Shown piece after piece: positions 4,943-22,014 of a stretch of 36,408 nucleotides of DNA (the first letter of the stretch is position 1; every line of letters begins with the position of its first letter). The notes below the pieces were generated by a model. The model made no database searches. It had not been told where the DNA came from and was given only the letters and a program-made list of their open reading frames with translations. The position numbers and the translations under genes were made by a program. This DNA comes from Legionella sp. (lineage in GTDB: Bacteria > Pseudomonadota > Gammaproteobacteria > Legionellales > Legionellaceae), in the NCBI GenBank assembly GCA_009995425.1, contig JAACPN010000016.1, forward strand, positions 1 through 36,408. Direction: 5' to 3'.

Positions 4943-5437
4943 ATGACTCAAACCAAAGCCAGCAACAAAACTAAAAAATTCATGACCGTACTCACATGGA
5001 TTATTGTTTTTGAATGCATCAGTTACGGGCTGGGTCAACTTTCTGATAGCAACATCACCCCATGGTATGCCGGCATAAACAAATCACCGCTCACCCCACC
5101 CGGCTTTGTGTTTGGCATTGTCTGGCCTATTCTATACGCCATGATTGCCATTACTGGGTGGTCGCTATGGACCCACCGCAAGCATCCCAAAACAAAACCC
5201 GCCCTCGTGTTTTATAGCATCCAAATGCTTTCAAATTGGGCCTGGTCACCGCTGTTTTTTCATTTTCATCTGATAACAGCAAGCTTTGTATGCATTATAT
5301 GCACAACCGTGTTTACTCTAATGACAATTCTTGCAACCAAAAATCATAATAAACTCTGCAGCCTGATGTTAACGCCTTATTTTTTATGGCTGCTTTTCGC
5401 AAGTTACCTAAACTGCGTCACCTGGGTATTAAATTAA
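4943..5437 (+). CDS. TspO/MBR family membrane protein
   Basis: A 164-aa integral membrane protein of the TspO/peripheral benzodiazepine receptor family, which binds porphyrins and is linked to tetrapyrrole and oxidative-stress responses. The family signature WYAGINKSPLTPPGFVFGIV is followed by WPILYAMIAITGW. Five transmembrane helices can be traced, with SNWAWSPLFF typical of the fourth. The stop codon overlaps the dsbD start (TAATG at 5435-5439), implying translational coupling. Its neighbours grxC and dsbD are thiol-redox genes, which fits a stress theme, though co-function is inference. Confidence 0.93.
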   Translation: MTQTKASNKTKKFMTVLTWIIVFECISYGLGQLSDSNITPWYAGINKSPLTPPGFVFGIVWPILYAMIAITGWSLWTHRKHPKTKPALVFYSIQMLSNWAWSPLFFHFHLITASFVCIICTTVFTLMTILATKNHNKLCSLMLTPYFLWLLFASYLNCVTWVLN

Positions 5438-7215
5438 TGTTGATAAAATATATGGCACGTTTCGGCTTTCTAATCTTAAGCCTCAATCTCCTAGCACCCA
5501 TCACAGCGCAAGCAGCTTCGCTCAATCCGCCCCCCGCCAGCGCCGTATTTCAAATTCATGTGAAAGCATATGATCCGAATACACTTTTACTGACATGGGA
5601 TATTAAACCCGGTTTTTTCTTATACCGTGACCGTATACGCATAGCCGCATCCCATAACGAATTAATCGATCTTGCTGACATCAAACTCCCTGCTGCACAA
5701 ACCAAAACGAATCACCTCAATGAGACCATTTTAATTTACCGAAAATATTTAAAGCTCCCCATAAGCCTTGTTGCATTACATCCTGGTGAAACCATCATCA
5801 ATATTCATGACCAAGGCTGCGCTGATGAGGGTTTTTGCTACCCTCCTGAAACACACGCGATCAAACTCAGCATCAATCCCAACCTTGCTTTAACGCATGC
5901 CGAGCTGATTGCGCCCCCCCCCATACTCCCCCAAAAAACCGCAACATCAAGCTCAGCATTTACGCAGCATCACTGGCCTATCACACTTTTAATTTTTTTA
6001 GGCTTGGGCTTGCTTTTATCCTTTACGCCTTGTGTGCTACCCATGATTCCCGTGCTTTCAGGCATTTTAGTCGGTCACGGAAAAAATTTATCCACTCGAA
6101 AAGCTTTTTTACTTTCACTCACCTATGTTTTAAGCATGTCACTCACATACGCTGCAATAGGCGCAGCCGTGACGCTGATGGGCGAAAACTTCCAGGTGTT
6201 ATTACAAACCCCTTGGGTAATTGGTTTATTTAGCTTACTTTTTGTTATTCTTGCACTATCTATGTTCGGTTTTTACGACTTAAAATTACCGCAATCATGG
6301 CAAGCCAAATTTGCCAACGTCAGCTACCATCAGGCCACAGGGCATTATCTAGGTGCGGCAGCCATGGGTTGCCTCTCAACGCTTATTTTGTCACCCTGTG
6401 TCACTGCCCCACTGATTGGCGCACTGGCCTACATTGCACAAACAGGTAATATCGTACTGGGCACAGCCTCGTTATTTTGCTTAGGTCTTGGTATGGGGCT
6501 TCCGCTGCTTTTAGTCGGCGCATCCCTCGGTCGATGGCTGCCTCATGCAGGCAACTGGATGAACACCGTAAAATCCATCTTTGGCATCATGCTTCTGGGG
6601 ATTGCGATTTATCTTATAAGCCGCGTCATTTCACCGTTTATTAGCATGCTCTTGTGGTCAAGCTTGTTGGTTTTTTCAGGCATCACACTGGGCGCTTTTC
6701 ACCGTGCCAGATCACACTTATCACGACTTCGTCGTGGTGTAGGCATCATGCTCTTAGCTTATGGTTTATTGATACTCTTTGGCGCAAGTCATGGCAACAC
6801 CAATCCACTCAAACCGCTTATTTTTTCTCATTCACATACAACAACACGCACGCAGGCACACGTACTTACAACGCTTGAAGCAACCGAGCAGGCTCTCCAA
6901 CAAGCCGCAAAACAACATCAATTCGTTATGTTGGATTTTTACGCTGATTGGTGTACAGCATGTAAATCTCTCGAAGCCAACACCCTACGCAACCCTAAAA
7001 TTCAAGAAGCTCTAAAAAATATAGTATTATTAAAACTAGATTTAACCGCCAATAATCATGAAAGCCGTGCCTTAATGCATAAATTTAACGTGGTTGCACC
7101 GCCCACGTTTGTCTTTTTTGATTCAGGCCAAGAACACCCCGAGCTACGCCTGGTCGGCGATATCTCTGCTTCAGCATTACAGAAAAATTTACAAGCACTC
7201 AAGACTGGATCATGA
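5437..7215 (+). CDS. dsbD: Thiol:disulfide interchange protein DsbD
   Basis: A 592-aa inner-membrane protein that carries electrons from cytoplasmic thioredoxin to periplasmic DsbC, DsbG and cytochrome c maturation. Domains in order: a signal peptide (residues 1-27, ending AQAA); the periplasmic alpha domain with its Cys pair C128/C134 in DQGCADEGFCYP; an eight-helix membrane domain with the Cys of FTPCVLPMIP (C199) and LSPCVTAPL (C321); and a C-terminal thioredoxin-fold domain with WCTAC (C506/C509). All six catalytic cysteines are present. I place the start at the ATG overlapping the TspO stop, because a clean signal peptide follows; an upstream in-frame ATG would put extra residues ahead of it. 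The stop overlaps the crcB start. ccmA/ccmB at the far end of the window are a possible client pathway. Confidence 0.96.
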   Translation: MLIKYMARFGFLILSLNLLAPITAQAASLNPPPASAVFQIHVKAYDPNTLLLTWDIKPGFFLYRDRIRIAASHNELIDLADIKLPAAQTKTNHLNETILIYRKYLKLPISLVALHPGETIINIHDQGCADEGFCYPPETHAIKLSINPNLALTHAELIAPPPILPQKTATSSSAFTQHHWPITLLIFLGLGLLLSFTPCVLPMIPVLSGILVGHGKNLSTRKAFLLSLTYVLSMSLTYAAIGAAVTLMGENFQVLLQTPWVIGLFSLLFVILALSMFGFYDLKLPQSWQAKFANVSYHQATGHYLGAAAMGCLSTLILSPCVTAPLIGALAYIAQTGNIVLGTASLFCLGLGMGLPLLLVGASLGRWLPHAGNWMNTVKSIFGIMLLGIAIYLISRVISPFISMLLWSSLLVFSGITLGAFHRARSHLSRLRRGVGIMLLAYGLLILFGASHGNTNPLKPLIFSHSHTTTRTQAHVLTTLEATEQALQQAAKQHQFVMLDFYADWCTACKSLEANTLRNPKIQEALKNIVLLKLDLTANNHESRALMHKFNVVAPPTFVFFDSGQEHPELRLVGDISASALQKNLQALKTGS

Positions 7216-10231: not shown

Positions 10232-13200
10232 TCAATAACAAAGACTTACAGAATCTGTATCAAATAATCCCGTTAACGCCTCTAATAAACCATCTTCGGG
10301 GAGCACGCCCCAACGCGGTGGCAAATGCACAATTTTTTCAGCATCACCATTCACATACTTGAGCCGAACCGGGCATCGCCCTGGGTACTGCTCAAGCAAA
10401 GCTTTTAATTGCTCAAACTGGCTTGCATGATTAGGCGTTACATTCAATAACAAATTTTTTGAAAAGCGTGCACGCGCTTCAGCAACCGAATACACCGCTG
10501 TTGCCGTGACACGCACCCCACCGGTGAAATTATCTTCACCTACCTCACCTTTTAAGCACACAATGTCACCTGAAGCTGGCGGTGTAGGAGCGGCTTCAAA
10601 CACTTCAGAAAACACCACGGCATCCAGCGTTCCACTATCATCTTCTAACGTCATGATCACCAATTGCTTACCACGCTTGGTGATGATACGACGCATACCT
10701 CGCACCAACGCACATACACGCGCTTTTTTAAGATGATTTTTCCCTAGATCGGCAATCGGCACAACATGCTCGCCCAGCTCAACACGATAAGACTGGGCCG
10801 GATGGCCACTCAGATAAAAACCCAACGTATCTTTTTCACCTTGCAAGCGCTGCTTCTCGGTCCAAGGAACCGCCTCTGCATAAGGTGGTGTGTCATCTTG
10901 CTCACCAAACAACCCGAATAAATCAGCCTGGCCGCTGTTTTGGCTGGAATGGAATTCAAGCCCGCGTTTCATGGCCGAATCCAACGACGCATGCAGAACC
11001 GAACGCTCAATACCCCAGTCATCAAAGCTTCCACTTTTAATTAAAGCCTCGAACACGCGGCGATTGGTACGACGCAAATCCACTTGACGACAAAAATCAA
11101 ATAAATCTTTGGCAGGACCTTGTTCTTCTCGTGTTTGAATTAACGCTTCAATCACGGCCTCGCCCACACCTTTGAGTGCGCCCAAGCCATAAATCAGCGT
11201 TTTATCATCGGCAACGGTAAACTCATATTGCCCGTGCACAACCGACGGCAAACGTACGTCAAGTTTCATTTCTTTACATTCACGTAACAACATATCCACT
11301 TTATCGGTATTATCCATATCCACCGATATCACCGATGCCATAAATGCTGCTGGATAATGTGCTTTAAGCCAAGCGGTTTGATAAGCCACGAGTGCATACG
11401 CTGCCGAATGAGATTTATTAAATCCGTAGCCTGCGAATTTCTCCATTAAATCAAACATCGCTGTGCTAATTTTTTTATCAATACCCCGCGCTGTGGCACC
11501 TTCGGTAAAAATAACACGCTGCTTGGCCATTTCTTCAGGCTTTTTCTTACCCATCGCGCGACGCAATAAATCTGCAGCTCCGAGCGTATAGTTTGCTAAA
11601 ACCTGAGCAATCTGCATCACCTGCTCTTGATATAAAATAACCCCATACGTTGGTTTTAAAATTGGCTCCAAATCAGGGTGTAAATACACAATCGGCGATC
11701 GGCCATGCTTTCGTTCAACAAAGTCATCGACCATGCCCGACTGTAACGGCCCAGGCCGGTAGAGTGCCACCAAAGCAATAATATCTTCAAATGAATCAGG
11801 CTGGAGGCGATGAATTAAATCTTTCATACCGCGTGACTCAAGCTGAAACACAGACGTCGTTTGACACGCCTGTAATAGTTCAAATGTTTTTGCGTCATCT
11901 AACGGTATGTTTGCAATCAACAGCGGCTCTAGAGCCTCGTTTGCACGCCTCTGATTCACAGTTTTCAATGCGCAATCAATCACCGTAAGTGTTTTAAGAC
12001 CTAAAAAGTCAAACTTAACAAGCCCCACCGCTTCCACATCATCTTTATCAAACTGACTCACCCATTGCGTTGAGTCTTGCTCACAATACACCGCCGTAAA
12101 ATCGGTTAGTACAGAAGGCGCTATGACGACACCCCCTGCGTGCTTACCTGCATTACGTGTGATGCCCTCAAGCGATAAAGCCAAATCAATTAAGCTTCGA
12201 ACATCTTCTTCATCTTCATAACGCCGTTCGAGCTCAGGCTCCATTTCCAAAGCTTTGGTGAGCGTGATGCCTAATTCAAACGGAATAAGTTTCGCAAGCT
12301 TATCCACAAAACCATAAGGATGACCCAGTACGCGACCCACATCACGAATGACCGCTTTGGCCGCCATGGTACCGAACGTAATGATCTGCGATACACTTTG
12401 CCGCCCATAACGTTCCGCAACATAATCAATCACGCGATCGCGACCGTACATACAAAAGTCGATATCAAAATCGGGCATGGATACCCGCTCAGGATTCAAA
12501 AATCGCTCAAACAGCAAATCATATTCAAGTGGGTCTAAGTCCGTGATCAATAAAACATACGCCACCAACGAACCCGCACCCGAACCACGACCAGGCCCCA
12601 CAGGAATCGCCTGATTTTTAGCCCACTGAATAAAATCAGCAACAATTAAAAAATAACCTGCAAAGCCCATCTGATTAATCACCCCGAGCTCAATATCAAG
12701 ACGCTCTCGATAAGCAACCGGTGCTTCAGATACATGCGTAAGACCTAAGCGCTTCGCAAGCCCTTCTTCTGACATATGGGTTAAATACGTTTTTTCAGAA
12801 AAATTTTCTGGCACAGGAAAATTCGGTAAATAAACATTGCCCAGTGGCAAATCAACCGTACAACGCTTCGCTATTTCATAGGTGTTTTCAATCGCTTGAG
12901 GCAAATCAGCAAATAACGCACACATCTCATCCGCTGAACGCAAATATTGTTCTGGACTATAACGCTTAGGTCGCCTTGGATCGGCAAGCGTATAACCGTC
13001 ATGAATACACACACGCGCTTCGTGTGCATCAAATTCACTTGAATCAATAAAACGGACATCATTGGTTGCAACCAGTGGCAAGTTTAATTTATCAGCCAAA
13101 CGCACGGCGCGTTCGTTATACGCCTCTTCACCAGGGCGCCCTGTTCGCTGAATTTCTAAATAAAATCGCCCAGGAAATAAGCTGCTCCAGCGCTTGGCCA

Positions 13201-13723: not shown

Positions 13724-14059
13724 CTAAGAAGCCTGTCTTTTATCGCGAGCATAAAACACAAGACCAAACTGATTAATATGATTGATTAAATTTTTATTCG
13801 TTATCTCGCTCATAAACGACAAATCAAACGTGTATATTAAATCCAAATCATCAAGTGCCAGACTAATTTTATTTAATAACGTCATCGATGGCGAAAAGCC
13901 CGCGTTTAATAGAATCGTTAAATCAATATCAGAGCCTGTTCTATAATTGCCTATTGCTCGGGAACCATACAAAATAACACGTTTAATTTCAGGAAAATTT
14001 GCCAATGTGTTTTGTATAAGCTGAATCACAGATGGCTTTAGACCACAATTTTTTAACAT
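13724..14059 (-). CDS. mntA: MntA-type nucleotidyltransferase antitoxin
   Basis: A 111-aa minimal nucleotidyltransferase. It carries the exact family motif GS-X10-DXD (G32 S33 ... D44-I-D46 in LYGSRAIGNYRTGSDIDL). In the HepT/MntA type VII toxin-antitoxin system such proteins neutralise the HEPN toxin by transferring AMP to a Tyr in its active-site motif. The ATG at 14059 starts one base after the stop of the HEPN gene (TAATATG) and gives the standard length; a longer reading through the upstream gene is not credible. It is the second gene of the pair on the minus strand. The C-terminus (VFYARDKRQAS) is short and basic. Confidence 0.9.
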   Translation of the reverse strand: MLKNCGLKPSVIQLIQNTLANFPEIKRVILYGSRAIGNYRTGSDIDLTILLNAGFSPSMTLLNKISLALDDLDLIYTFDLSFMSEITNKNLINHINQFGLVFYARDKRQAS

Positions 14060-14060
14060 A

Positions 14061-14462
14061 TTATGCTTCAGCAAGCTGTACAAGTTTTTTGTAAAGAGCA
14101 TTAAATTCAGCGTGATAACATGCTTTGATTTGTTTAATAATTTGTGCACTAATCACGTCATTATACGTATGCGATGTAAGATTTCGACTTTTAATCATAT
14201 CCATCCAAACATCCCCATGCTCGATTAAACCTAATTTAAATGCTTCTCGTGCAGTATCTTTTGAACCAAATAAGTTATCGACACCTCGTGAAACTAAAAA
14301 ATCTTTTTTTGTTTTCCAAGCCAGTTCATGCGTATATTCAAACGCCTGTATTAAACCTTGTTCTTCTAAATCATTTAAATTATCTTTTTGTAAAAACTTA
14401 CTCAATTGAGATAAAGCTTTTCCGTAATTATCAAGTCTCTGTTTCCAGCGAACATCATGCAT
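14061..14462 (-). CDS. hepT: HepT-type HEPN toxin (HI0074 family)
   Basis: A 133-aa all-helical HEPN protein of the HI0074/nucleotidyltransferase substrate-binding family. It has the RX4HXY motif as R93-NLTS-H98-T-Y100, which is both the ribonuclease site and the AMP-acceptor Tyr in characterised HepT toxins. The conserved HELAWKTKKDFL and DTAREAFKLGLI helices are also present. I choose the ATG at 14462 because AAGGA lies nine bases upstream; a GTG two codons earlier is too close to it. It forms an operon with mntA and marks one edge of the accessory block. The 60 bases upstream contain an AT-rich run with repeated TACAAAA. Confidence 0.9.
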   Translation of the reverse strand: MHDVRWKQRLDNYGKALSQLSKFLQKDNLNDLEEQGLIQAFEYTHELAWKTKKDFLVSRGVDNLFGSKDTAREAFKLGLIEHGDVWMDMIKSRNLTSHTYNDVISAQIIKQIKACYHAEFNALYKKLVQLAEA

Positions 14463-14519
14463 TGTCACGCTTCCTTATACAAAATACAAAATACAAAACA
14501 AACATAAATAATTATAAAA

Positions 14520-16190
14520 CTAAACAACCTTATCTAACAACGATGCCTTGGTTGTCGTGATAGAGCCATGCTCATAAAATCCTAAGCGCATCAATACATC
14601 AAAAATCATATCCACTGCACGCACAACCGACATAGTTGAAGTATCAATCACCAGTTCTGGATTTTGCGGTATTTCATACGGATCATCCACGCCGGTAAAG
14701 CCTGTGATTAAGCCTTCTTCCGCTTTTTGATACAAGCCTTTGACATCCCGAGATTTACACACATCAACATCTGCTGCCACATAAATTTCAATAAACCCAC
14801 CGTATTGTTCAACCTGCGTTCGCACACTGCGACGTGCCTCGGCATACGGTGCAATCGCTGCACAAATCGCAATGCCTTGGTGTTTTGTAATCTCAGACGC
14901 AACATAGCCTAGGCGTTTAACATTGATATCTCTATCTTTTTTAGAAAAACCAAGCCCTGCCGATAGATGTTTACGAACCACATCACCATCCAATAAACTC
15001 ACGCGACGCCGGTTATCCTCCAGCAACTTGGCTTGCACCGCTTTGGCTAACGTTGATTTTCCTGAGCCCGAAAGTCCAGTAAAAAAGAGCGTAAAACCTT
15101 GTTCATGCTTCAGCGGATAGGCCGCTTGCAATGTTTGAATCACCTCAGGAAACGAAAACCAATCAGGCAGTGCCTTTCGCTGTTGAAGCGCCTGCCTCAA
15201 CGCCGTTCCTGAAACATTTTCAACAACATCATCCGCACACAGTTCATCTTCACTCAACAACGTATCTTTTTGCTTCACATACACAATCGCGGGAAACGCC
15301 ATCACCTCAAGTTCAATTTCGTCTGCATGGGCAAGCAGCAGCGTTTGCGCCGCATAAGGCTCATAAAATGCTTGATTTTGGCTGTTATTTCCAGGCCCTG
15401 CATGGTCACGTCCCACAATAAAATGGGTTGCGCCATAATTTTTACGAATGATGGCGTGCCACACCGCCTCACGTGGGCCAGCCATACGCATAGCCAACGG
15501 CAGTAAACTCAACATGGCGTGCTGTGTTTTAGGATAACGCTTCATCACATGCTCATAGCATTTAACACGCAAGACATAATCAATATCGCCAGGCTTCGTC
15601 ATACCTATAACAGGATGAATTAATATATTCGCATTAGCCTTACGCGCTGCGCGTTGTGTTAATTCAAAATGCGCGCGATGGATGGGGTTACGTGTTTGAA
15701 AGGCCAACACACGCGACCAGCCGTACAACTTAAATAACTGCTTTAACTCAGCCGGCGTATGCCGATACTCAAGAAAATCATGATGCGAAGGCAGAGCTAA
15801 AGCCGTCACCTTTCCACCGATATACCAAGAACCTGCTTCATCATATAAATACTGAACGCCCGGATGAAGCTTATCGGTCGTCCCAAAAACTTGCTCAGCC
15901 TCAAGCTGCTTATTTGGTTGCCATATCGAGCTAATAGTAACACGCGCCAAAGGCGTGTTCTCATCATCCACGCATATAATTTCATCACCGATCGCGCACT
16001 GCTCAGCAAAAACAGCAGACACATCGAGGGTGATGGGCATAGGCCACAAACGACCATCGGCTAAGCGCATGGTGTCACACACGCTATCATAATCTGCTTC
16101 ATCTAAAAAGCCAGAAAGCGGTGCAAAAGCGCCGTTTAATAAACACTCAAGATCACACAACTGCCGCTTGCTTAACGTCCAATAATGCAT
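14520..16190 (-). CDS. Bifunctional sulfate adenylyltransferase/APS kinase (PAPS synthase)
   Basis: A 556-aa fusion that turns sulfate and two ATP into PAPS. The N-terminal ATP sulfurylase domain (about 1-345) has the HxxH motif in QTRNPIHRAH (165-174), GRDHAGPG (260-267) and VSGTALR (327-332). The C-terminal APS kinase domain (about 365-540) has Walker A GLSGSGKST (372-380), DGD (401-403) and the RDVKGLYQKA substrate loop. Both halves look catalytically complete. I choose the ATG at 16190, with AGGGAAG about eight bases upstream, overlapping the end of the ABC gene by 38 bases. It is the last gene of the peptide operon. No cysH, cysI or cysDN is near, so here PAPS is most simply a sulfo-donor for the sulfotransferase two genes upstream of the ABC gene rather than an intermediate of cysteine synthesis (inference). 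Confidence 0.95.
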   Translation of the reverse strand: MHYWTLSKRQLCDLECLLNGAFAPLSGFLDEADYDSVCDTMRLADGRLWPMPITLDVSAVFAEQCAIGDEIICVDDENTPLARVTISSIWQPNKQLEAEQVFGTTDKLHPGVQYLYDEAGSWYIGGKVTALALPSHHDFLEYRHTPAELKQLFKLYGWSRVLAFQTRNPIHRAHFELTQRAARKANANILIHPVIGMTKPGDIDYVLRVKCYEHVMKRYPKTQHAMLSLLPLAMRMAGPREAVWHAIIRKNYGATHFIVGRDHAGPGNNSQNQAFYEPYAAQTLLLAHADEIELEVMAFPAIVYVKQKDTLLSEDELCADDVVENVSGTALRQALQQRKALPDWFSFPEVIQTLQAAYPLKHEQGFTLFFTGLSGSGKSTLAKAVQAKLLEDNRRRVSLLDGDVVRKHLSAGLGFSKKDRDINVKRLGYVASEITKHQGIAICAAIAPYAEARRSVRTQVEQYGGFIEIYVAADVDVCKSRDVKGLYQKAEEGLITGFTGVDDPYEIPQNPELVIDTSTMSVVRAVDMIFDVLMRLGFYEHGSITTTKASLLDKVV

Positions 16191-17910
16191 GGGTATTCTT
16201 CCCTCTCGCTTGAAGTCTAATTTGTTGATCGGCAAACGCGCACATATCCTCTTGATGTGAAATAATCACGATGGTCATGCTCCCGCGTAATGCAGCCAGT
16301 GCTGTTTGAATTTTTTGTAAATTTTTTGAATCGAGTGCATTGGTGCTTTCATCCAAGACCAAAAGCTTCGGTTTCATCAGTAACGCGCGTGCTAAAGCAA
16401 TACGCTGCCGCTCGCCTCCTGATAAACGCACACCGCGATCACCTAATATTGTATCCAACCCTTCATCTAGATCATCCACAAAATCAGCGGCTGCTGCCTT
16501 TAATACCTGCCAAAGCGCTTCATCCGTATAATCATCACAAAACCAGGTTAAATTATCACGCACAGAGGCATGAAATAAAAAAACATCTTGGGTAACATAC
16601 GCAATATGACGCTGCCAAGCGGTATGATTTGAGCTATGAAGTCGCTCTCCATCTATTATAATTTCACCTGCACTCGGTTTTAGCAAACCTACCATTAAAT
16701 CCGCTAACGTCGATTTTCCTGAACCGGATGGGCCGATTAAAGCCGTCGTACTGTTTTTAGTAAGTTTTAGCGAAAGATTGTGAATAATATAAGTATCTGG
16801 CTTCGCAGGATAAGAAAAACTCACCGATTTAAGTTCGATATGTGACTCAAAACTTAATGTATCTGTCGCAGGCAAGACATGCTCCGCTTGACATGCTTGT
16901 AATAAATCTTGAATACCCAAATACGCGGGTAATTGATGTAAAATACGCTGATAGGTTTGTTGGGCCGTTGAAACCATCGGTAACGTGCGTGCAAACACAA
17001 TCAAGAGCAATAATAAGCTTGCCGGCGGCAGATGAATCACCCCTATCGCCATATATAATAGCGCACTCAAGACCATCACCGAACCGCAGGTGTACACCAA
17101 ACGACTTCGTGCCGTCATCACGGTCACACGTTGATTTTGATATTCGAGTGATGCATTCACATCCACCAATTTATCGATAAAGCGTGCTTCAAGACCTGAG
17201 CCTTTGAGCATTTTAAGCGCCGAAAATTGCTCTTGAATCGCTTGAAAGATCATTTGATTCTTGTGTAAATGATCTCGTCCTGCCTTGGATGTGAGGCGAT
17301 GCAAAGGCAACATCAAACCTAACAAGACCAAAGCACACCCCATCGCCGCCAGGGTCATTTTCCAAGACAGCAAACACGCAAGTGCCGTATACACCATCAC
17401 AAGAAACAACGTGTTGATTAAGCTTAATAATTGATGATGGCACGTTGCCACCCCTTGCACTTGTGTGGTTAAGCTGTACAGCACATCCGACATTTTACGT
17501 TTTAAAAAAAAGGACCATGACGTCAAGAGTAATTTTCGGTGTAAATGTGCACGTAAATAACGCGTGTAGCGTTGCTGAAGCGCGGTGCCTGTGATCTGTT
17601 CTGTGTACGCCAGTAAGGCAATCATACTTATCATCAAAACATAAACCACAAGCACACCACCAAGCGTCATGGGAATATGCAGCCTATCAAAGCATGCATG
17701 AAATTGGGTGAGTATGCCCTGACTTGCGACAGACCCTAACGACACCCCAATCAGCTGCAATAACGGCAGAATCAGCAACAAACCAAAACCCGAAGTCACA
17801 CTTCTTGCAAACATCAAACACAAGGTTACACTTGAACGTAGGGCATCAAATTTGAAAAGATCGCGCAACAAACAACTTAATACACGAAGATTGCTTACAT
17901 TCACGCGCAT
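16153..17910 (-). CDS. ABC exporter, fused membrane and ATPase domains
   Basis: A 585-aa half-transporter that would dimerise in the inner membrane and export a substrate. The N-terminal part (about 1-320) has six membrane helices of the type-1 exporter fold. The C-terminal nucleotide-binding domain has Walker A GPSGSGKST (393-401), Q-loop VTQD, the signature LSGGERQRIALARALL (from 496), Walker B LLVLDES (516-522) and the switch His in ISHQED. There is no N-terminal C39 peptidase domain, so it cannot itself remove a leader peptide. It starts one base after the PqqD-like gene ends and overlaps Sat-CysC, placing it firmly in the operon. By analogy with lasso peptide clusters (protein D), the cargo is most likely the modified peptide; export of an unrelated substrate cannot be excluded. 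Confidence 0.9.
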   Translation of the reverse strand: MRVNVSNLRVLSCLLRDLFKFDALRSSVTLCLMFARSVTSGFGLLLILPLLQLIGVSLGSVASQGILTQFHACFDRLHIPMTLGGVLVVYVLMISMIALLAYTEQITGTALQQRYTRYLRAHLHRKLLLTSWSFFLKRKMSDVLYSLTTQVQGVATCHHQLLSLINTLFLVMVYTALACLLSWKMTLAAMGCALVLLGLMLPLHRLTSKAGRDHLHKNQMIFQAIQEQFSALKMLKGSGLEARFIDKLVDVNASLEYQNQRVTVMTARSRLVYTCGSVMVLSALLYMAIGVIHLPPASLLLLLIVFARTLPMVSTAQQTYQRILHQLPAYLGIQDLLQACQAEHVLPATDTLSFESHIELKSVSFSYPAKPDTYIIHNLSLKLTKNSTTALIGPSGSGKSTLADLMVGLLKPSAGEIIIDGERLHSSNHTAWQRHIAYVTQDVFLFHASVRDNLTWFCDDYTDEALWQVLKAAAADFVDDLDEGLDTILGDRGVRLSGGERQRIALARALLMKPKLLVLDESTNALDSKNLQKIQTALAALRGSMTIVIISHQEDMCAFADQQIRLQARGKNTHALLDVKQAAVV

Positions 17911-17911
17911 T

Positions 17912-18178
17912 TTAATCCGCAGTCATCACAAGAAACGCTTTCCCTAATAACGCGTCGACAAACGCCTGTACATCGGCTGTTGCAGTTGCTTCATCGATAG
18001 CATAATTATTTTGTAAAAAATGCACCATACTGGCTATATTCGTCGGTTTTTCATCCAATAAATTCCAAAGCTCCGCTCCCACGGTATTTAAGCCATGATA
18101 TTCCCCCGTGCTTGGTTCCATCATCACAATGTCGTGATCAATTTGCGTAAACACCACGTCTTGATTAATAGCTAGCAT
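17912..18178 (-). CDS. PqqD-like peptide-binding (RRE) protein
   Basis: An 88-aa PqqD-family protein. Such proteins are winged-helix RiPP recognition elements that bind leader peptides and present them to modifying enzymes; in lasso clusters the same fold is protein B1. The typical core is visible: PSTGEYHGLNTVGAELWNLL, the family's D-x-x-TGxYxGLNxVGxxIWxLL pattern, followed by a helical domain ending in FVDALLGKAFLV. The start at 18178 is chosen because AGGAG (18188-18192) is nine bases upstream; a Met three codons earlier abuts that site directly. The ribosome site overlaps the end of the sulfotransferase gene, so the two are coupled. It is the strongest family-level clue that the operon handles a peptide. 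Confidence 0.9.
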   Translation of the reverse strand: MLAINQDVVFTQIDHDIVMMEPSTGEYHGLNTVGAELWNLLDEKPTNIASMVHFLQNNYAIDEATATADVQAFVDALLGKAFLVMTAD

Positions 18179-18190
18179 GTTTTTCATCTC

Positions 18191-19036
18191 CTAAATATAC
18201 CCATGAGCTTGCATGACTTCGCCATGGTCATGAATAATGGTATCTATTTGTTTGGATGTGAGCACATTCTTCCAATCACCCACCATCCCTTTTCTAAAAA
18301 ATCGCTCGACTTTGGGCGGCTTTTCTTTAAAACCATGCGCTTGCTCCAAATCTTGCAAACGATCGATATGCGCATGGTTTAACGCGCGCTCAATACGTTC
18401 TTCTGAAGCATCCAGTTTTAAATGCTTAGCCGCACGTGTAAACGTTTCCATCGGCGTTTGTTTCATGTCTTCATACCGTAAGACCAAACAATTTATCTCT
18501 TGTGCTTCACTCCAACTTTTAACATGCATCGACCACGACAATAACTGCTGCCGTAATTGATCGTGCAATTTTTGATTGCTTTTACAAAATGCAAAATCAG
18601 GTTTTCCCATCGACTGGATAGCTTGATCAATCGAACAATTCATATGATTTGCAAACGAAACAGCGACATCTAAAGGATTTCGTACAAAATAAAGCGCACC
18701 CAGTGAGTTTTGTGCAGGAATAAGCGCCTCACCATTCGGCAAATACGTATAGGCATCATGCGTTTTATGATGTTCCACGGTGGTGGCTTGCTCAGCATGC
18801 CAGCGGTACACAGCCGGTCGTAAGGCATCCAAATCATCATGCGTAAAATGGGCGCTATCAAACCCTAGCGCTTCATCCACCCAGGCACGCCCACTGGCAA
18901 TCGCTCCGGTGCGAATGCCATCTAAATCTAAAGCGTCATCGCCATCATGCAGCATATGCGCTAAAAAAACACGAAACCACGTATTCCCTGATTTAGGATA
19001 CGACGCTAACCAATAAATTCCTTTTTGTTCAGACAT
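18191..19036 (-). CDS. PAPS-dependent sulfotransferase
   Basis: A 281-aa cytosolic-type sulfotransferase (Sulfotransfer_1 fold). It contains the 5'-phosphosulfate loop YPKSGNTW (13-20), the KTH motif with the likely catalytic base His93, the 3'-phosphate motif RNPLDVAVS (119-127) and the C-terminal RKGMVGDWK (248-256). All cofactor-binding elements are intact, so it should transfer sulfate from PAPS to a hydroxyl or amine. Its start overlaps the kinase gene end by eight bases (ATGTCTGA) and its stop lies inside the ribosome site of the PqqD-like gene. The target is unknown. The precursor encoded in the operon has no Tyr after residue 19, so a core-directed reaction would have to use Ser/Thr or another group. 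A small-molecule acceptor is the main alternative. Confidence 0.95.
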   Translation of the reverse strand: MSEQKGIYWLASYPKSGNTWFRVFLAHMLHDGDDALDLDGIRTGAIASGRAWVDEALGFDSAHFTHDDLDALRPAVYRWHAEQATTVEHHKTHDAYTYLPNGEALIPAQNSLGALYFVRNPLDVAVSFANHMNCSIDQAIQSMGKPDFAFCKSNQKLHDQLRQQLLSWSMHVKSWSEAQEINCLVLRYEDMKQTPMETFTRAAKHLKLDASEERIERALNHAHIDRLQDLEQAHGFKEKPPKVERFFRKGMVGDWKNVLTSKQIDTIIHDHGEVMQAHGYI

Positions 19037-19943
19037 GAACCACGCCTCGCGCTAACAAATCCGCTTGAATTAAATCCACAAGTTTATCCAATTGAAACCC
19101 TGCGCGAGGACGGGTGATACGTACCACATACACTTGAGACGCTAAACTTCCGACATGTTTCAAGTGCTTGTTTATTTTGCCTAAGCCCTTTAAATAATGC
19201 TGGCGATACGTATTATTTTTTAAAGGCAGCATTTTATGCATGCCTTCAATCGATTCAAATTCAAACGTATCTTGATTATGTGAATTTAAAATATACAGTA
19301 CTTTCAATGGCAGGTTTTTAGCATAAAATTGCTGCTCGAGGGGCACTGCGAATTTTTCGATATTCGGACGAATGCGTCGAAGCGCATCGGTTTCAATCGC
19401 TAATTTTTGACTTGAATCAGCCCATAACTTAACGTGCGGAAAACTTGGCATCACCTGCCCTGCTTGGTTAATCGCACACACATCATCGGCCAAAACCGAA
19501 TAACCACGGCTCATAAATGCAGCCGATAATGTTGACTTTCCGGCTCCCGAATGTCCGGCAAATGAAACACAAGCATCGCCGATTTTAATCGCATTCGCAT
19601 GCAACAAAAACAAATCTCGTTGCATCAACAAAGCCCCCATCCCCGAACCCAACAAAAACACGCGAATACTGTCTTCGTCGGCGCCTGCGTAAGGCTCAAT
19701 CGTTAAGGTATTTCCATCACGTATAAGATAACGTGCAACGTTAGGCACATTGAGCCAGAGCTCATGATGATTCGCTTGATAAAATGCGCCACGAGCGACA
19801 ACTTCGGGTAGACCTGCTTCAGAAACAACACCCCATTGAATGGTCACGCATGGTGCAACATCAGATGGTGTGGTGTTAACCAACAGCTCGGGTAAATTGA
19901 GTTCGCTTTGAATATTTAATCCAAATGCATGATAAACATACAT
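19029..19943 (-). CDS. HPr-kinase-like peptide kinase (lasso/HprK-related type)
   Basis: A 304-aa protein resembling HPr serine kinase/phosphorylase. An N-terminal beta-rich domain (FGLNIQSELNLPEL and following) leads to a kinase core preceded by the usual LHANAIKIGD. Walker A is GHSGAGKST (130-138) and the second motif is LADDV (151-155), equivalent to the catalytic Asp region of HprK. Relatives in some lasso clusters (for example that of paeninodin) phosphorylate the side chain of the C-terminal Ser of the precursor; others belong to HprK-related PqqD-linked systems of unknown role. The precursor here ends in Ser. No HPr or PTS gene is nearby, which argues against sugar regulation. It lies 139 bases after the precursor and overlaps the sulfotransferase gene. 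A GGA element ten bases before ATG 19943 is a modest ribosome site. Confidence 0.88.
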   Translation of the reverse strand: MYVYHAFGLNIQSELNLPELLVNTTPSDVAPCVTIQWGVVSEAGLPEVVARGAFYQANHHELWLNVPNVARYLIRDGNTLTIEPYAGADEDSIRVFLLGSGMGALLMQRDLFLLHANAIKIGDACVSFAGHSGAGKSTLSAAFMSRGYSVLADDVCAINQAGQVMPSFPHVKLWADSSQKLAIETDALRRIRPNIEKFAVPLEQQFYAKNLPLKVLYILNSHNQDTFEFESIEGMHKMLPLKNNTYRQHYLKGLGKINKHLKHVGSLASQVYVVRITRPRAGFQLDKLVDLIQADLLARGVVHV

Positions 19944-20082
19944 AGTACTCGGTCCTTGAGAACAATTATAAAAGCTTGCTTAGTGTCCCAGATTTTCTTT
20001 AAAAACGCTACACCTCGGCTTATGATCATGCTGCATGGGCTGCATAAAATCAACGGGATTCAGCGTGTCCAGCCTAAGGTTT

Positions 20083-20235
20083 TTAGCTCGGCCCGATGTT
20101 CGGGGTGGTTGATTCATGATCGTGTTGATTTTTATTAAGAGGGGTTAGGTTGTCAAGTGATATAAGAGCTGGCGCTGTGTAAATCTTAGAGTATAAATTA
20201 TCGGATTTTAACGGTTTCATGAATTCTTGGTCCAT
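20083..20235 (-). CDS. Candidate RiPP precursor with lasso-like leader
   Basis: A 50-aa peptide. A very strong ribosome site (AGGGGG, 20243-20248) seven bases before the ATG at 20235 fixes the start; a reading extended 17 residues upstream has no such site. Residues 19-24 are YTAPAL, the Y-x-x-P-x-L motif by which lasso leaders bind the B1/RRE protein, followed by ISLDNLTP with Thr31. If Thr31 is the conserved -2 residue, the core is the 18 residues from Leu33, with Asp39 at position 7 and Glu41 at position 9, the ring-acceptor positions in lasso peptides. It ends in GPS with a C-terminal Ser, the residue phosphorylated by lasso kinases. The Tyr-to-Thr spacing is three residues shorter than canonical, and Leu is an unusual first core residue. 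It is the first gene of the operon. The precursor role is inference from these features. Confidence 0.65.
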   Translation of the reverse strand: MDQEFMKPLKSDNLYSKIYTAPALISLDNLTPLNKNQHDHESTTPNIGPS

Positions 20236-20242
20236 GTTGGTT

Positions 20243-20248
20243 CCCCCT
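20243..20248 (-). promoter_or_regulatory. Strong ribosome binding site of the precursor
   Basis: AGGGGG on the minus strand, seven bases before the ATG at 20235. It is the best such site in the operon and consistent with the precursor being made in excess over the enzymes. It decides the start of the peptide. Confidence 0.75.
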
Positions 20249-20463
20249 AGGTATGGCTTGATTTTCATTATTTGTTGTTTTAACACGCTTTAGCACGCTG
20301 TAAAACCTGGGGTTTACCGTAGATTCTGATTTTATCTCTAAACTAGGCTACATCGACATTCCATAAATTACTCACCTTACGCACGCGTTCGCAGCGTCAT
20401 CATGCCTCTCGCCTTTCATGCATAGAACCGTTACTATAAATCAATATCTATACCACTTAATGC

Positions 20464-20479: not shown

Positions 20480-20731
20480 ATGTTTATTCGTTCATCGAAA
20501 GAGCTGGCGCTCCTTATCGTCAACCGACGAAAAAAATTGAACTTAAGCCAAACGGCTGTAGCTAAACTGGTTGGATTAAAGCAACAAACCGTTTCTGAAT
20601 TTGAAAATAAACCCGAAAGCACCAAGCTCGCCACGTTATTTAAAATATTATCCGCTGTTAAATTAGATGCCTCGGTGCTCGCAAAAGAAGAGCAGCTTAT
20701 CTCTGAATCGCAATGGAATGAAGAATGGTAA
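20480..20731 (+). CDS. hipB: HipB-like antitoxin (XRE family)
   Basis: An 83-aa helix-turn-helix protein. The HTH runs through LNLSQTAVAKLVGLKQQTVSEFEN, followed by KLATLFKILSAV, the standard XRE fourth and fifth helices. The C-terminus ends in NEEW, with a terminal Trp like that of E. coli HipB. It should bind HipA and repress the hipBA promoter. Its stop overlaps the hipA start by seven bases (ATGGTAA), the usual arrangement. Confidence 0.93.
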   Translation: MFIRSSKELALLIVNRRKKLNLSQTAVAKLVGLKQQTVSEFENKPESTKLATLFKILSAVKLDASVLAKEEQLISESQWNEEW

Positions 20732-22014
20732 ACACTAAAAAAACCCCTCAAACCCTACGTGTTATCATGAACGGCTATCTTATTGGTCGCTTGAAAAAAA
20801 ACACGCGCGGCAAACTGATTTTTAGTTACGCAAGCAGCTGGCTCAACACGCCCGGTGCACGTCCAATATCACTTGCCCTCCCGCTTGTTGAGCAACCGTT
20901 TACAACCGAAGCGGTGTATCATTTTTTTGATGGTCTACTTTCTGATAACCCAAACACGCGCGCACAGATTCAAAAAAAATGGGGTCTTATCAGTAAACAT
21001 CCGTTTGACTTATTAGCTTGCATTGGATCTGAGTGCACAGGCGCTATTCAGCTGATTGCGGGCAAAGTTCCAGCCTTCAAAAAGAAATTTGAATATTCAA
21101 CTTTAGATAAAAAAACACTGGCAACGCTTTTACGCAATCATCAAGATACACCGATTTCACTTGCTGGCACGCAAGATAAAATTGGGCTTTTATATCACAA
21201 TCATACTTGGTGTTTACCAGAAAATAAAACGCCCACCAGTCACCTGATTAAATTATCCAAAGACATATTGCATAGTGCCGAAAACGAATGGCTGTGCACC
21301 CAAATTGCCAAGGCATTTGGTCTGCCTGTTGCTGAGTCACGCCTGCTTTATGTCGAAGGTATCAAAGCCTTAGCCGTTCAACGTTTTGACCGTAAATTTT
21401 CAAGTGATAACACCTGGCTTATGCGTTTACCCCAAGAAGATCTATGCCAAGCACTCGGTGTATCGCCTTTTTTAAAATATCTCATAGCAGGCGGACCAAG
21501 CTTGTATGATGTCATGAAATTTTTATTGGGATCAGCGAATCCTATTCATGATCGCGATGTATTTTTTTGCTCTCAAATTTTATTTTGGCTGCTCGCCAAC
21601 CACGATGGGCATGCCAAAAATTTTAGCGTATTTATCGAGCCTGCAGGTAAATATCGCCTGACACCACTTTATGATATTCAATCAGCCTACCCGGCCATCG
21701 CACAAAACATGTTAGATTCGCATAAGATTAACATGGCCATGCCGCTTTTGACTAAGGCATCTCCTGCCTATTGGCATCAAATCAAGCGTATTGATTTTTT
21801 AGAAACAGCTAAGCATATTAATTATTCGGTTGAACGTGCCGAAGCCATTCTTGATGACATGTTAGCGTGTGTAGATACGGTGATTCAGCAGGTTTCAGCC
21901 AGTTTACCTCAAGCTTTTCCAAAACAAGTGTCTGATCCTATTTTTGACGGTATGCGGTTTATGAAAAAGAAACTGGCAAGGCATCAAAACCAAAAACACG
22001 CGGTTTTAAACTAA
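20725..22014 (+). CDS. hipA: HipA-like serine/threonine kinase toxin
   Basis: A 429-aa HipA-family kinase (E. coli HipA is 440 aa), whose relatives phosphorylate tRNA synthetases and stall translation. The N-terminal domain (about 10-115) includes [24 protein letters not shown]. The Gly-rich loop is SLAGTQDK (145-152), with Ser145 matching the autophosphorylated Ser of HipA. The catalytic motif NHDGHAKNF has its Asp at 294, and the metal-binding YDIQS has its Asp at 317. All key residues are present, so it is probably active. It is followed tail-to-tail by trmL with a nine-base overlap of the coding ends. It forms the right edge of the accessory block and reads away from the peptide operon. 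Confidence 0.94.

Follow-up and report, generated by a model that had tools for sequence, protein, structure and literature searches.

Lasso-peptide clusters that carry a homologue of HPr kinase (HprK), such as that of paeninodin in Paenibacillus and those of polyphosphorylated lasso peptides in proteobacteria, are described as phosphorylating the C-terminal serine of the precursor, and in pseudomycoidin-type clusters a nucleotidyltransferase attaches a hexose to this phosphate (PMC8498205). Lasso clusters with sulfotransferase genes have been on record from at least 2014 (PMC4289311); some Gram-positive ones hold an HPr kinase, a putative sulfotransferase or both, with the role left open in both sources (PMC4289311, PMC8498205). 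In the RaxX/RaxST sulfatyrotide system, a peptide is paired with the sulfotransferase RaxST, and 3'-phosphoadenosine 5'-phosphosulfate (PAPS) is provided by RaxP and RaxQ (PMC9484694). Here, we describe a six-gene operon in a 36,408-nucleotide stretch of DNA (the window), contig C74 of the 83-contig, 97% complete draft genome of an uncultured member of the Legionellaceae. In our reading, to which we give a probability of about 0.73, the operon encodes one half of a split lasso-peptide system, that which recognizes, tailors and exports the peptide; in it, an HprK-like kinase and a sulfotransferase are accompanied by their own PAPS supply.

The minus strand carries all six open reading frames (ORFs), at the place and spacing that an initial annotation had given them. 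The lasso-type precursor peptide of 50 aa (20083..20235), recognized by a leave-out profile and by alignment, has the leader motif YTAPAL, a likely ring acceptor in Glu41 and a C-terminal GPS; it matches no Pfam or NCBIfam model, and its gene ends 139 nt before that of the lasso-type HprK-like kinase (19029..19943). The latter overlaps by 8 nt the gene of the PAPS-dependent sulfotransferase (18191..19036; Sulfotransfer_1, 94.2 bits, cut-off 22), in which the PKSGNTW, RNPLD...S and RKGxxGDW motifs are intact. After 3 nt follows the PqqD-like RiPP (ribosomally synthesized and post-translationally modified peptide) recognition element, or lasso B1 (17912..18187; PF05402, 63.1 bits, cut-off 23.4), whose best NCBIfam model, lasso_PqqD_Bac, gives 51.3 bits for a cut-off of 80, and after 1 nt a D-type ABC exporter with membrane and ATPase domains (16153..17910; ABC_membrane and ABC_tran). 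This overlaps the gene of the bifunctional PAPS synthase Sat-CysC (14520..16190), which joins ATP-sulfurylase and APS_kinase domains and exceeds the cut-off of the equivalog NF004040 (809.6 bits against 669); its ORF was listed from a TTG (14520-16235), and the ATG at 16190 is the likelier start. The family assignments of the initial annotation hold for five of the six genes. Profiles match the kinase as HprK-like only weakly (Hpr_kinase_C, 25.0 bits against a cut-off of 33.3; HprK_rel_A, 33.5 bits against 200), but its P-loop (GHSGAGKS) and DD residues are retained in an alignment of 25 sequences.

By themselves these genes are insufficient for a lasso peptide, a point that the initial annotation had missed, and the lasso genes of this genome do not form a single cluster: the protease B2 and the cyclase C lie on another contig, C70. 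In this respect the initial annotation, which had seen a phospho/sulfo-RiPP system in the operon, has been refined rather than overturned, as the system is of the lasso type and its B2 and C stand elsewhere. B2 (L085 9009-9500) scores 56.9 bits with lasso_biosyn_B2 (cut-off 33), and its Cys90 and His127 are invariant in 11 B2 sequences, while the best model for C (L085 7171-9012) is lass_lactam_cya (316.6 bits, cut-off 525); C retains SGGxDS, and its residue 2 is not Cys. The same contig carries a second precursor (10697-10873), and a third, on contig C61, immediately precedes a second cyclase-like gene, which is shorter. Contamination is unlikely because the GC contents of C74, C70 and C61 are alike (0.42-0.44, the first kb of C70 being at 0.54) and a long ORF close to the B2 gene of C70 has a relative close to B2 in each of two genomes of the genus (G004 and G005). 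Two ORFs of the window, 4943-5437 and 5386-7215, considered for B2 and C by their size, proved to be TspO and DsbD.

The linkage of the operon was followed in eight genomes of the genus, the window's own included, and in 144 genomes of the family. Kinase, sulfotransferase and PqqD are contiguous in 8/8 genus genomes, the exporter occupies the same place in seven (not in G002) and Sat-CysC lies within the operon in six. B2 is present in all eight and, in five, is adjacent to the kinase and divergent from it, so that the separation of the operon from B2 and C in the window's genome looks derived; in G005 a reverse transcriptase and HipB/HipA-like genes lie in the 4.6 kb that separate the two, and in G000 and G004 it is on another contig. 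In two of the loci (L027 and L029) a cyclase resembling asparagine synthetase and an ATP-grasp protein come after the divergent B2. Six genus genomes have a single PqqD, including that of the window, where no other was found, and one recognition element therefore seems to serve all precursors.

The co-occurrence of kinase, sulfotransferase and PqqD genes, which the initial annotation had put forward as a check, is thus found. Its own condition for refutation, a small ORF that is not conserved in related operons, went partly against it: the peptide is not kept in place but is a member of a dispersed, paralogous precursor family. A profile from which the window peptide had been excluded ranks its ORF first among the 393 of the window, with E 2.3e-6 and 22.3 bits (E 0.77 for the ORF that comes next), the E-value being 1.8e-6 when all GPS-ending precursors are also excluded, and 20 mononucleotide-shuffled windows reach 12.0 bits at most. 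In the family a profile of 15 aligned precursors (E <=1e-5) matches 16 genomes, namely 15 of the 18 with B2 and 1 of the 126 others, the latter being a 67% complete genome (G060); B2 is without a match at this threshold in G063, G072 and G112. At E <=1, 16 of the 17 genomes examined are matched. The dispersed family is thus conserved and tracks the lasso B2. Genomes hold several precursors with differing cores, and for several of these no lasso gene was found in the surrounding stretches of 1-3 kb.

In an alignment of 15 precursors, chosen by eye and not blind from 34 pattern matches in 40 sources, the Tyr and Pro of the leader motif and the Glu are invariant and all 15 sequences end in Ser. 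Left out were L102, a duplicate of L033, and 18 others by eye, among them the YcaO-type peptide of L035 and that at L025:3244-3450, which has the leader YTPPTLVSL and ends in Cys. All of 23 further intact and distinct precursors also end in Ser, a count that is not wholly independent as the profile spans the C-terminus and that leaves out 11 profile matches with E from 0.0084 to 1; a Glu lies 18-27 residues after the leader Tyr in all 15 aligned precursors and in 21 of the 23. Seven other matches were not counted: a short peptide ending in Lys (G009:C97), one with an internal stop (G002:C59), one at a contig end (G063:C139), one with no matching ORF (G025:C30), and three repeats (G009:C16, the same as the C59 peptide; G011:C116, a duplicate; G005:C4:29270, the same as that at L025:3244). 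The terminal Ser, present in 38/38 intact precursors, is the only hydroxyl residue that they all share at a fixed place. In 4 of the 38 another Tyr follows that of the leader at a distance of more than 13 residues, and the core of the window peptide has none; sulfation of Tyr was accordingly dropped as the general mode. Thr at leader position -2 is reported for lasso precursors (PMC10368454); T31 of the window peptide fits this position if the core starts at L33, with a 9-residue ring to E41, and most of the family is without Thr at that column.

The supply of PAPS was compared in 14 genomes, 11 of which have the sulfotransferase. In 8/11 Sat-CysC is in the operon and there is no clear CysH, a single weak PF01507 match in one of them (G007; 25.3 bits, cut-off 22.5) being read as unrelated; the other three (G003, G006 and G014) have a CysH of 192-197 bits and an APS-kinase domain elsewhere, in a CysNC-like frame of 638-651 aa. 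In the three genomes of the set that are devoid of the sulfotransferase (G011, G019 and G031) CysH is missing and no APS-kinase match exceeds 22 bits. In G025, one of the eight, Sat-CysC forms with the exporter a single ORF of 1121 aa, on a 5-kb contig of a metagenome-assembled genome; outside the set, it is in the operon also in G063. In the window's genome Sat-CysC is the only strong APS kinase found. Among all 144 genomes an APS kinase (E <=1e-20) is found in 23/24 with the sulfotransferase and in 25/120 of the others (Fisher 2e-12, uncorrected for relatedness). The view of Sat-CysC as a mere housekeeping gene was abandoned, since in the 14-genome set the supply follows the sulfotransferase, even if it is not exclusive to lasso loci, and Sat-CysC looks like the dedicated PAPS supply of the operon. 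The linkage and this pattern together uphold the core of the initial annotation, a RiPP tailoring and export unit with a kinase, a PAPS sulfotransferase and its own PAPS.

The sulfotransferase residues of PKSGNTW, RNPLD and RKG..GDW are invariant in 21 aligned sequences, and the closest solved structures are cytosolic SULTs, followed by Teg12/Teg14. Since the genome keeps Sat-CysC with the operon and has no recognizable CysH, sulfation would be the plainest use of PAPS; the rarity of core Tyr, none being in the window peptide, makes Ser or Thr (S42, T43, T44 or S50) a likelier site. By analogy with the described lasso kinases, the most likely target of the kinase is the Ser at the C-terminus of the precursor in its linear form: the combination typical of paeninodin-type kinases, an HprK-like kinase and a Ser-ending precursor, is found here, with a weak profile match, and the terminal Ser fits the kinase because lasso genomes without the sulfotransferase (G011 and G031) keep both. 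The system might then work as follows. PqqD would bind the 50-aa peptide, and the precursors encoded elsewhere in the genome, by their YxxPxL leader; the kinase would phosphorylate the C-terminal Ser, and the sulfotransferase would move sulfate from PAPS, produced by Sat-CysC out of sulfate and ATP, to a Ser or Thr hydroxyl. B2 and C from contig C70 would remove the leader and form the ring at the conserved Glu, after which the product would leave through the ABC protein. The order of these steps, the residues modified, the presence of both groups on one peptide, the threading of the ring and the export are put forward as predictions from gene content and motifs.

Compared with the Gram-positive clusters mentioned above, the operon shares the presence of both enzymes, HPr kinase and sulfotransferase, and differs in belonging to another phylum, in its dispersed precursors and in its PAPS synthase, which does not figure in the passages on those clusters (PMC4289311, PMC8498205). 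An HprK homologue and Ser-ending precursors are in common with the paeninodin and polyphosphorylated proteobacterial clusters (PMC8498205), while the sulfotransferase and PAPS synthase, and the distance of cyclase and protease from the operon in this genome, set it apart. An NTP_transf_5-like gene after the operon in six of the eight genus genomes recalls the pseudomycoidin type; none was found in the window, and G004 is without it too. As in the RaxX/RaxST system (PMC9484694), a peptide sulfotransferase is accompanied by PAPS-making enzymes; in RaxX, however, the sulfated residue is a Tyr, and lasso enzymes and a kinase are a feature of the present system. No report of a sulfated lasso peptide was found in the open-access literature, most subscription papers being outside the search, although such peptides have been suspected from gene neighbourhoods, and none was found there of a lasso peptide together with an ATP sulfurylase or sulfate adenylyltransferase. 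The initial annotation had named no described family with a PAPS-using sulfotransferase plus a dedicated PAPS synthase in such a unit. Genes of an HPr kinase and a sulfotransferase were already on record for some Gram-positive lasso clusters (PMC4289311, PMC8498205); the PAPS synthase, the dispersed precursors and the sharing of the cassette with YcaO clusters look new. If the reading is right, sulfate would join the known tailoring groups of lasso peptides, and a genome with Sat-CysC in the operon supplies a concrete set of precursors and enzymes for testing sulfation.

Several observations weigh against the proposed system. The operon (C74) and B2/C (C70) are on separate contigs of a draft, and their co-function rests on relatives; neither C nor PqqD reaches its curated lasso cut-off, and the leader/core boundary of the precursor is uncertain. 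Directly before the kinase, up to 1300 nt upstream, no peptide was found in 15 relative loci, of which three are second copies of loci counted among them, one (L023) has no upstream DNA and two (L026/L022, L034) have less than 700 nt. As for PAPS, one genome (G008) has the sulfotransferase and no strong APS kinase, and on two plasmids, from Hyphomicrobiales UR115 and Thalassobaculum, the 7 kb to either side of the sulfotransferase yielded no PAPS synthase. Sat-CysC also stands in other surroundings in 14 Legionellaceae genomes without the sulfotransferase, these being the ones examined among the 25 such genomes with an APS kinase. On Tistrella mobilis pTM1 no B2, cyclase or PqqD is annotated within 7 kb of the kinase, sulfotransferase and nucleotidyltransferase genes. 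Finally, the YcaO-type precursors associated with the same cassette end in A or F rather than Ser, and therefore the target of the kinase is not always a C-terminal Ser.

Among the other explanations, the one that survives best supposes that phosphorylation and sulfation are alternatives, acting on different precursors or competing for the same Ser, and never both placed on one peptide. It would agree with the several precursors of different cores in each genome, with the terminal Ser as the only fixed hydroxyl and with its retention, together with the kinase, in the lasso genomes devoid of the sulfotransferase. The genes of the two enzymes, however, overlap in the window and are paired in 17/24 genomes, which suggests that kinase and sulfotransferase both act on the same peptide, and we regard strict alternation as rather unlikely, if well worth keeping in view. 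Far less credit is due to the idea that the sulfotransferase and Sat-CysC serve to modify a polysaccharide, a lipid or a small molecule, the lasso genes being mere neighbours. The other surroundings of Sat-CysC speak for it (in L153 the copy is beside what we take by eye to be an ABC-2-type exporter, and several copies in genomes without the sulfotransferase adjoin long proteins that, again by eye, presumably have a TPR-like start), as does the pair of pTM1, with no lasso core annotated within 7 kb; but the sulfotransferase stands between the kinase and the recognition element in all eight genus genomes, and two further gammaproteobacterial genomes and two alphaproteobacterial plasmids have it together with lasso C or B2, its other occurrences being mostly in YcaO clusters, so that this idea is improbable. 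Least probable of all is a decaying remnant that no longer makes a lasso peptide, for although the loci are split, toxin-antitoxin-like pairs stand at both sides and the window is devoid of the NTP_transf_5 gene, the reading frames of the operon are open, the motifs examined are intact, and B2, C and two further precursors are elsewhere in the same genome.

The sulfotransferase is found in 24 of the 144 Legionellaceae genomes. The kinase directly precedes it in 17, three others have it broken or at the edge of a contig, and in four it has no adjoining kinase. The contiguous kinase, sulfotransferase and PqqD with a lasso-type kinase are found in 11/24 (G000-G007, G009, G063 and G076), and in G058 the pair is at a contig end; the sulfotransferase is at a contig edge in G025, followed by the fused exporter and Sat-CysC, and in G060, followed by PqqD and the exporter, and its locus is broken in G127. 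In four genomes (G014, G086, G125 and G152) the same three genes are accompanied by TfuA and YcaO, in G107 the pair adjoins a different PAPS pathway, CysD (read by eye) and CysNC, with a YcaO-like ORF, and in the four that have no adjoining kinase (G008, G132, G136 and G138) a Cys-rich peptide and a YcaO-like ORF accompany the sulfotransferase; Pfam was applied to the YcaO and TfuA of L139 and L140, the other YcaO-like ORFs being matched by sequence to these or to that of L035. The YcaO/TfuA clusters thus resemble the lasso operon in the contiguous HprK, sulfotransferase and PqqD and in a precursor with a YxxP leader motif, and differ in having YcaO/TfuA in place of B2 and C, other cores and another exporter. 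In L140, L142, L147 and L035 the precursors carry the YxxP leader and a tail rich in Gly, Ser, Thr and Ala, and in L139 (3522-3668), L144 (3018-3164), L145 (14244-14390) and L146 (14122-14268) a 48-aa peptide with five consecutive Cys accompanies the sulfotransferase and YcaO-like ORF.

The search of 369 genomes of the class gave 37 sulfotransferase matches at E 0.001, and outside the family only two are close, G285 (47%), with the order HprK, sulfotransferase, C, and G397 (41%), with C, HprK, sulfotransferase and PqqD accompanied by B2. No match was found in phages, and four records of a plasmid collection match. The UR115 plasmid (L225) has HprK, sulfotransferase and PqqD with C and an ATP-grasp protein, and that of Thalassobaculum (L226) has C, two HprK-like genes, the sulfotransferase, a B2 annotated as lasso, PqqD, an ABC protein and a nucleotidyltransferase; a loose YxxP pattern gave no precursor in the former and no convincing one in the latter. 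Tistrella mobilis pTM1 shares with the window the kinase-sulfotransferase pair, an annotated HPr kinase, a sulfotransferase of 29.8% identity and a nucleotidyltransferase being in a row there; the fourth match, on Tistrella pTM3 (L224), is unannotated and supports nothing, as the ORF calls, poor on high-GC DNA, gave no relatives there and missed even the sulfotransferase. In a tree of 21 sulfotransferases, whose deep nodes are weakly supported and whose two outside branches are long, lasso and YcaO copies are mostly apart, with 4 label changes over four labels (minimum 3), and for this reason moves between the two classes look few. We propose tentatively, as a possibility with the odds against it, that a single cassette of kinase, sulfotransferase and recognition element, with its PAPS supply and exporter, is addressed by the leader, serves scattered precursors and has been passed between lasso and YcaO/TfuA systems; in the boldest form of this proposal, the kinase and then the sulfotransferase may act on the same C-terminal Ser, giving a mixed phosphate-sulfate cap. 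One recognition and tailoring unit would then be able to serve dispersed precursors and two RiPP classes.

Further features were observed around these loci. A second class of HprK-PqqD loci, without the sulfotransferase, exists in the family (L036, L037, L038, L040, L042 and L043), and L038 also encodes B2, cyclase-like, subtilase and beta-propeller (Lactonase) proteins. Toxin-antitoxin-like pairs flank the operon of the window (13724-14468 and 20480-22014), a nucleotidyltransferase with an HI0074-type partner and HipB/HipA. An ATP-grasp protein, possibly a further tailoring enzyme, is found beside the lasso cyclase in several lineages, on C70 (L085 5912-7174) and in L027 (3260-4495), both by PF14397, and in L222 (14677-15957) and L225 (10146-11435) by weaker similarity (1e-16 and 1e-5). 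Related reverse transcriptases (RVT_1) are near the lasso genes of three genomes (L085 9652-10728, L025 2085-3296 and L033 7297-8415), two of them directly preceding a YxxP peptide, and that of L085 is group II maturase-like (118 bits, cut-off 300). A second set, mutually related, follows the shorter cyclase and a precursor (L086 7542-10086, L033 4486-5691 and L102 4813-6033); it has what we take to be the look of a diversity-generating retroelement, and the region in L086 also holds a protein with an Lcl_C domain.

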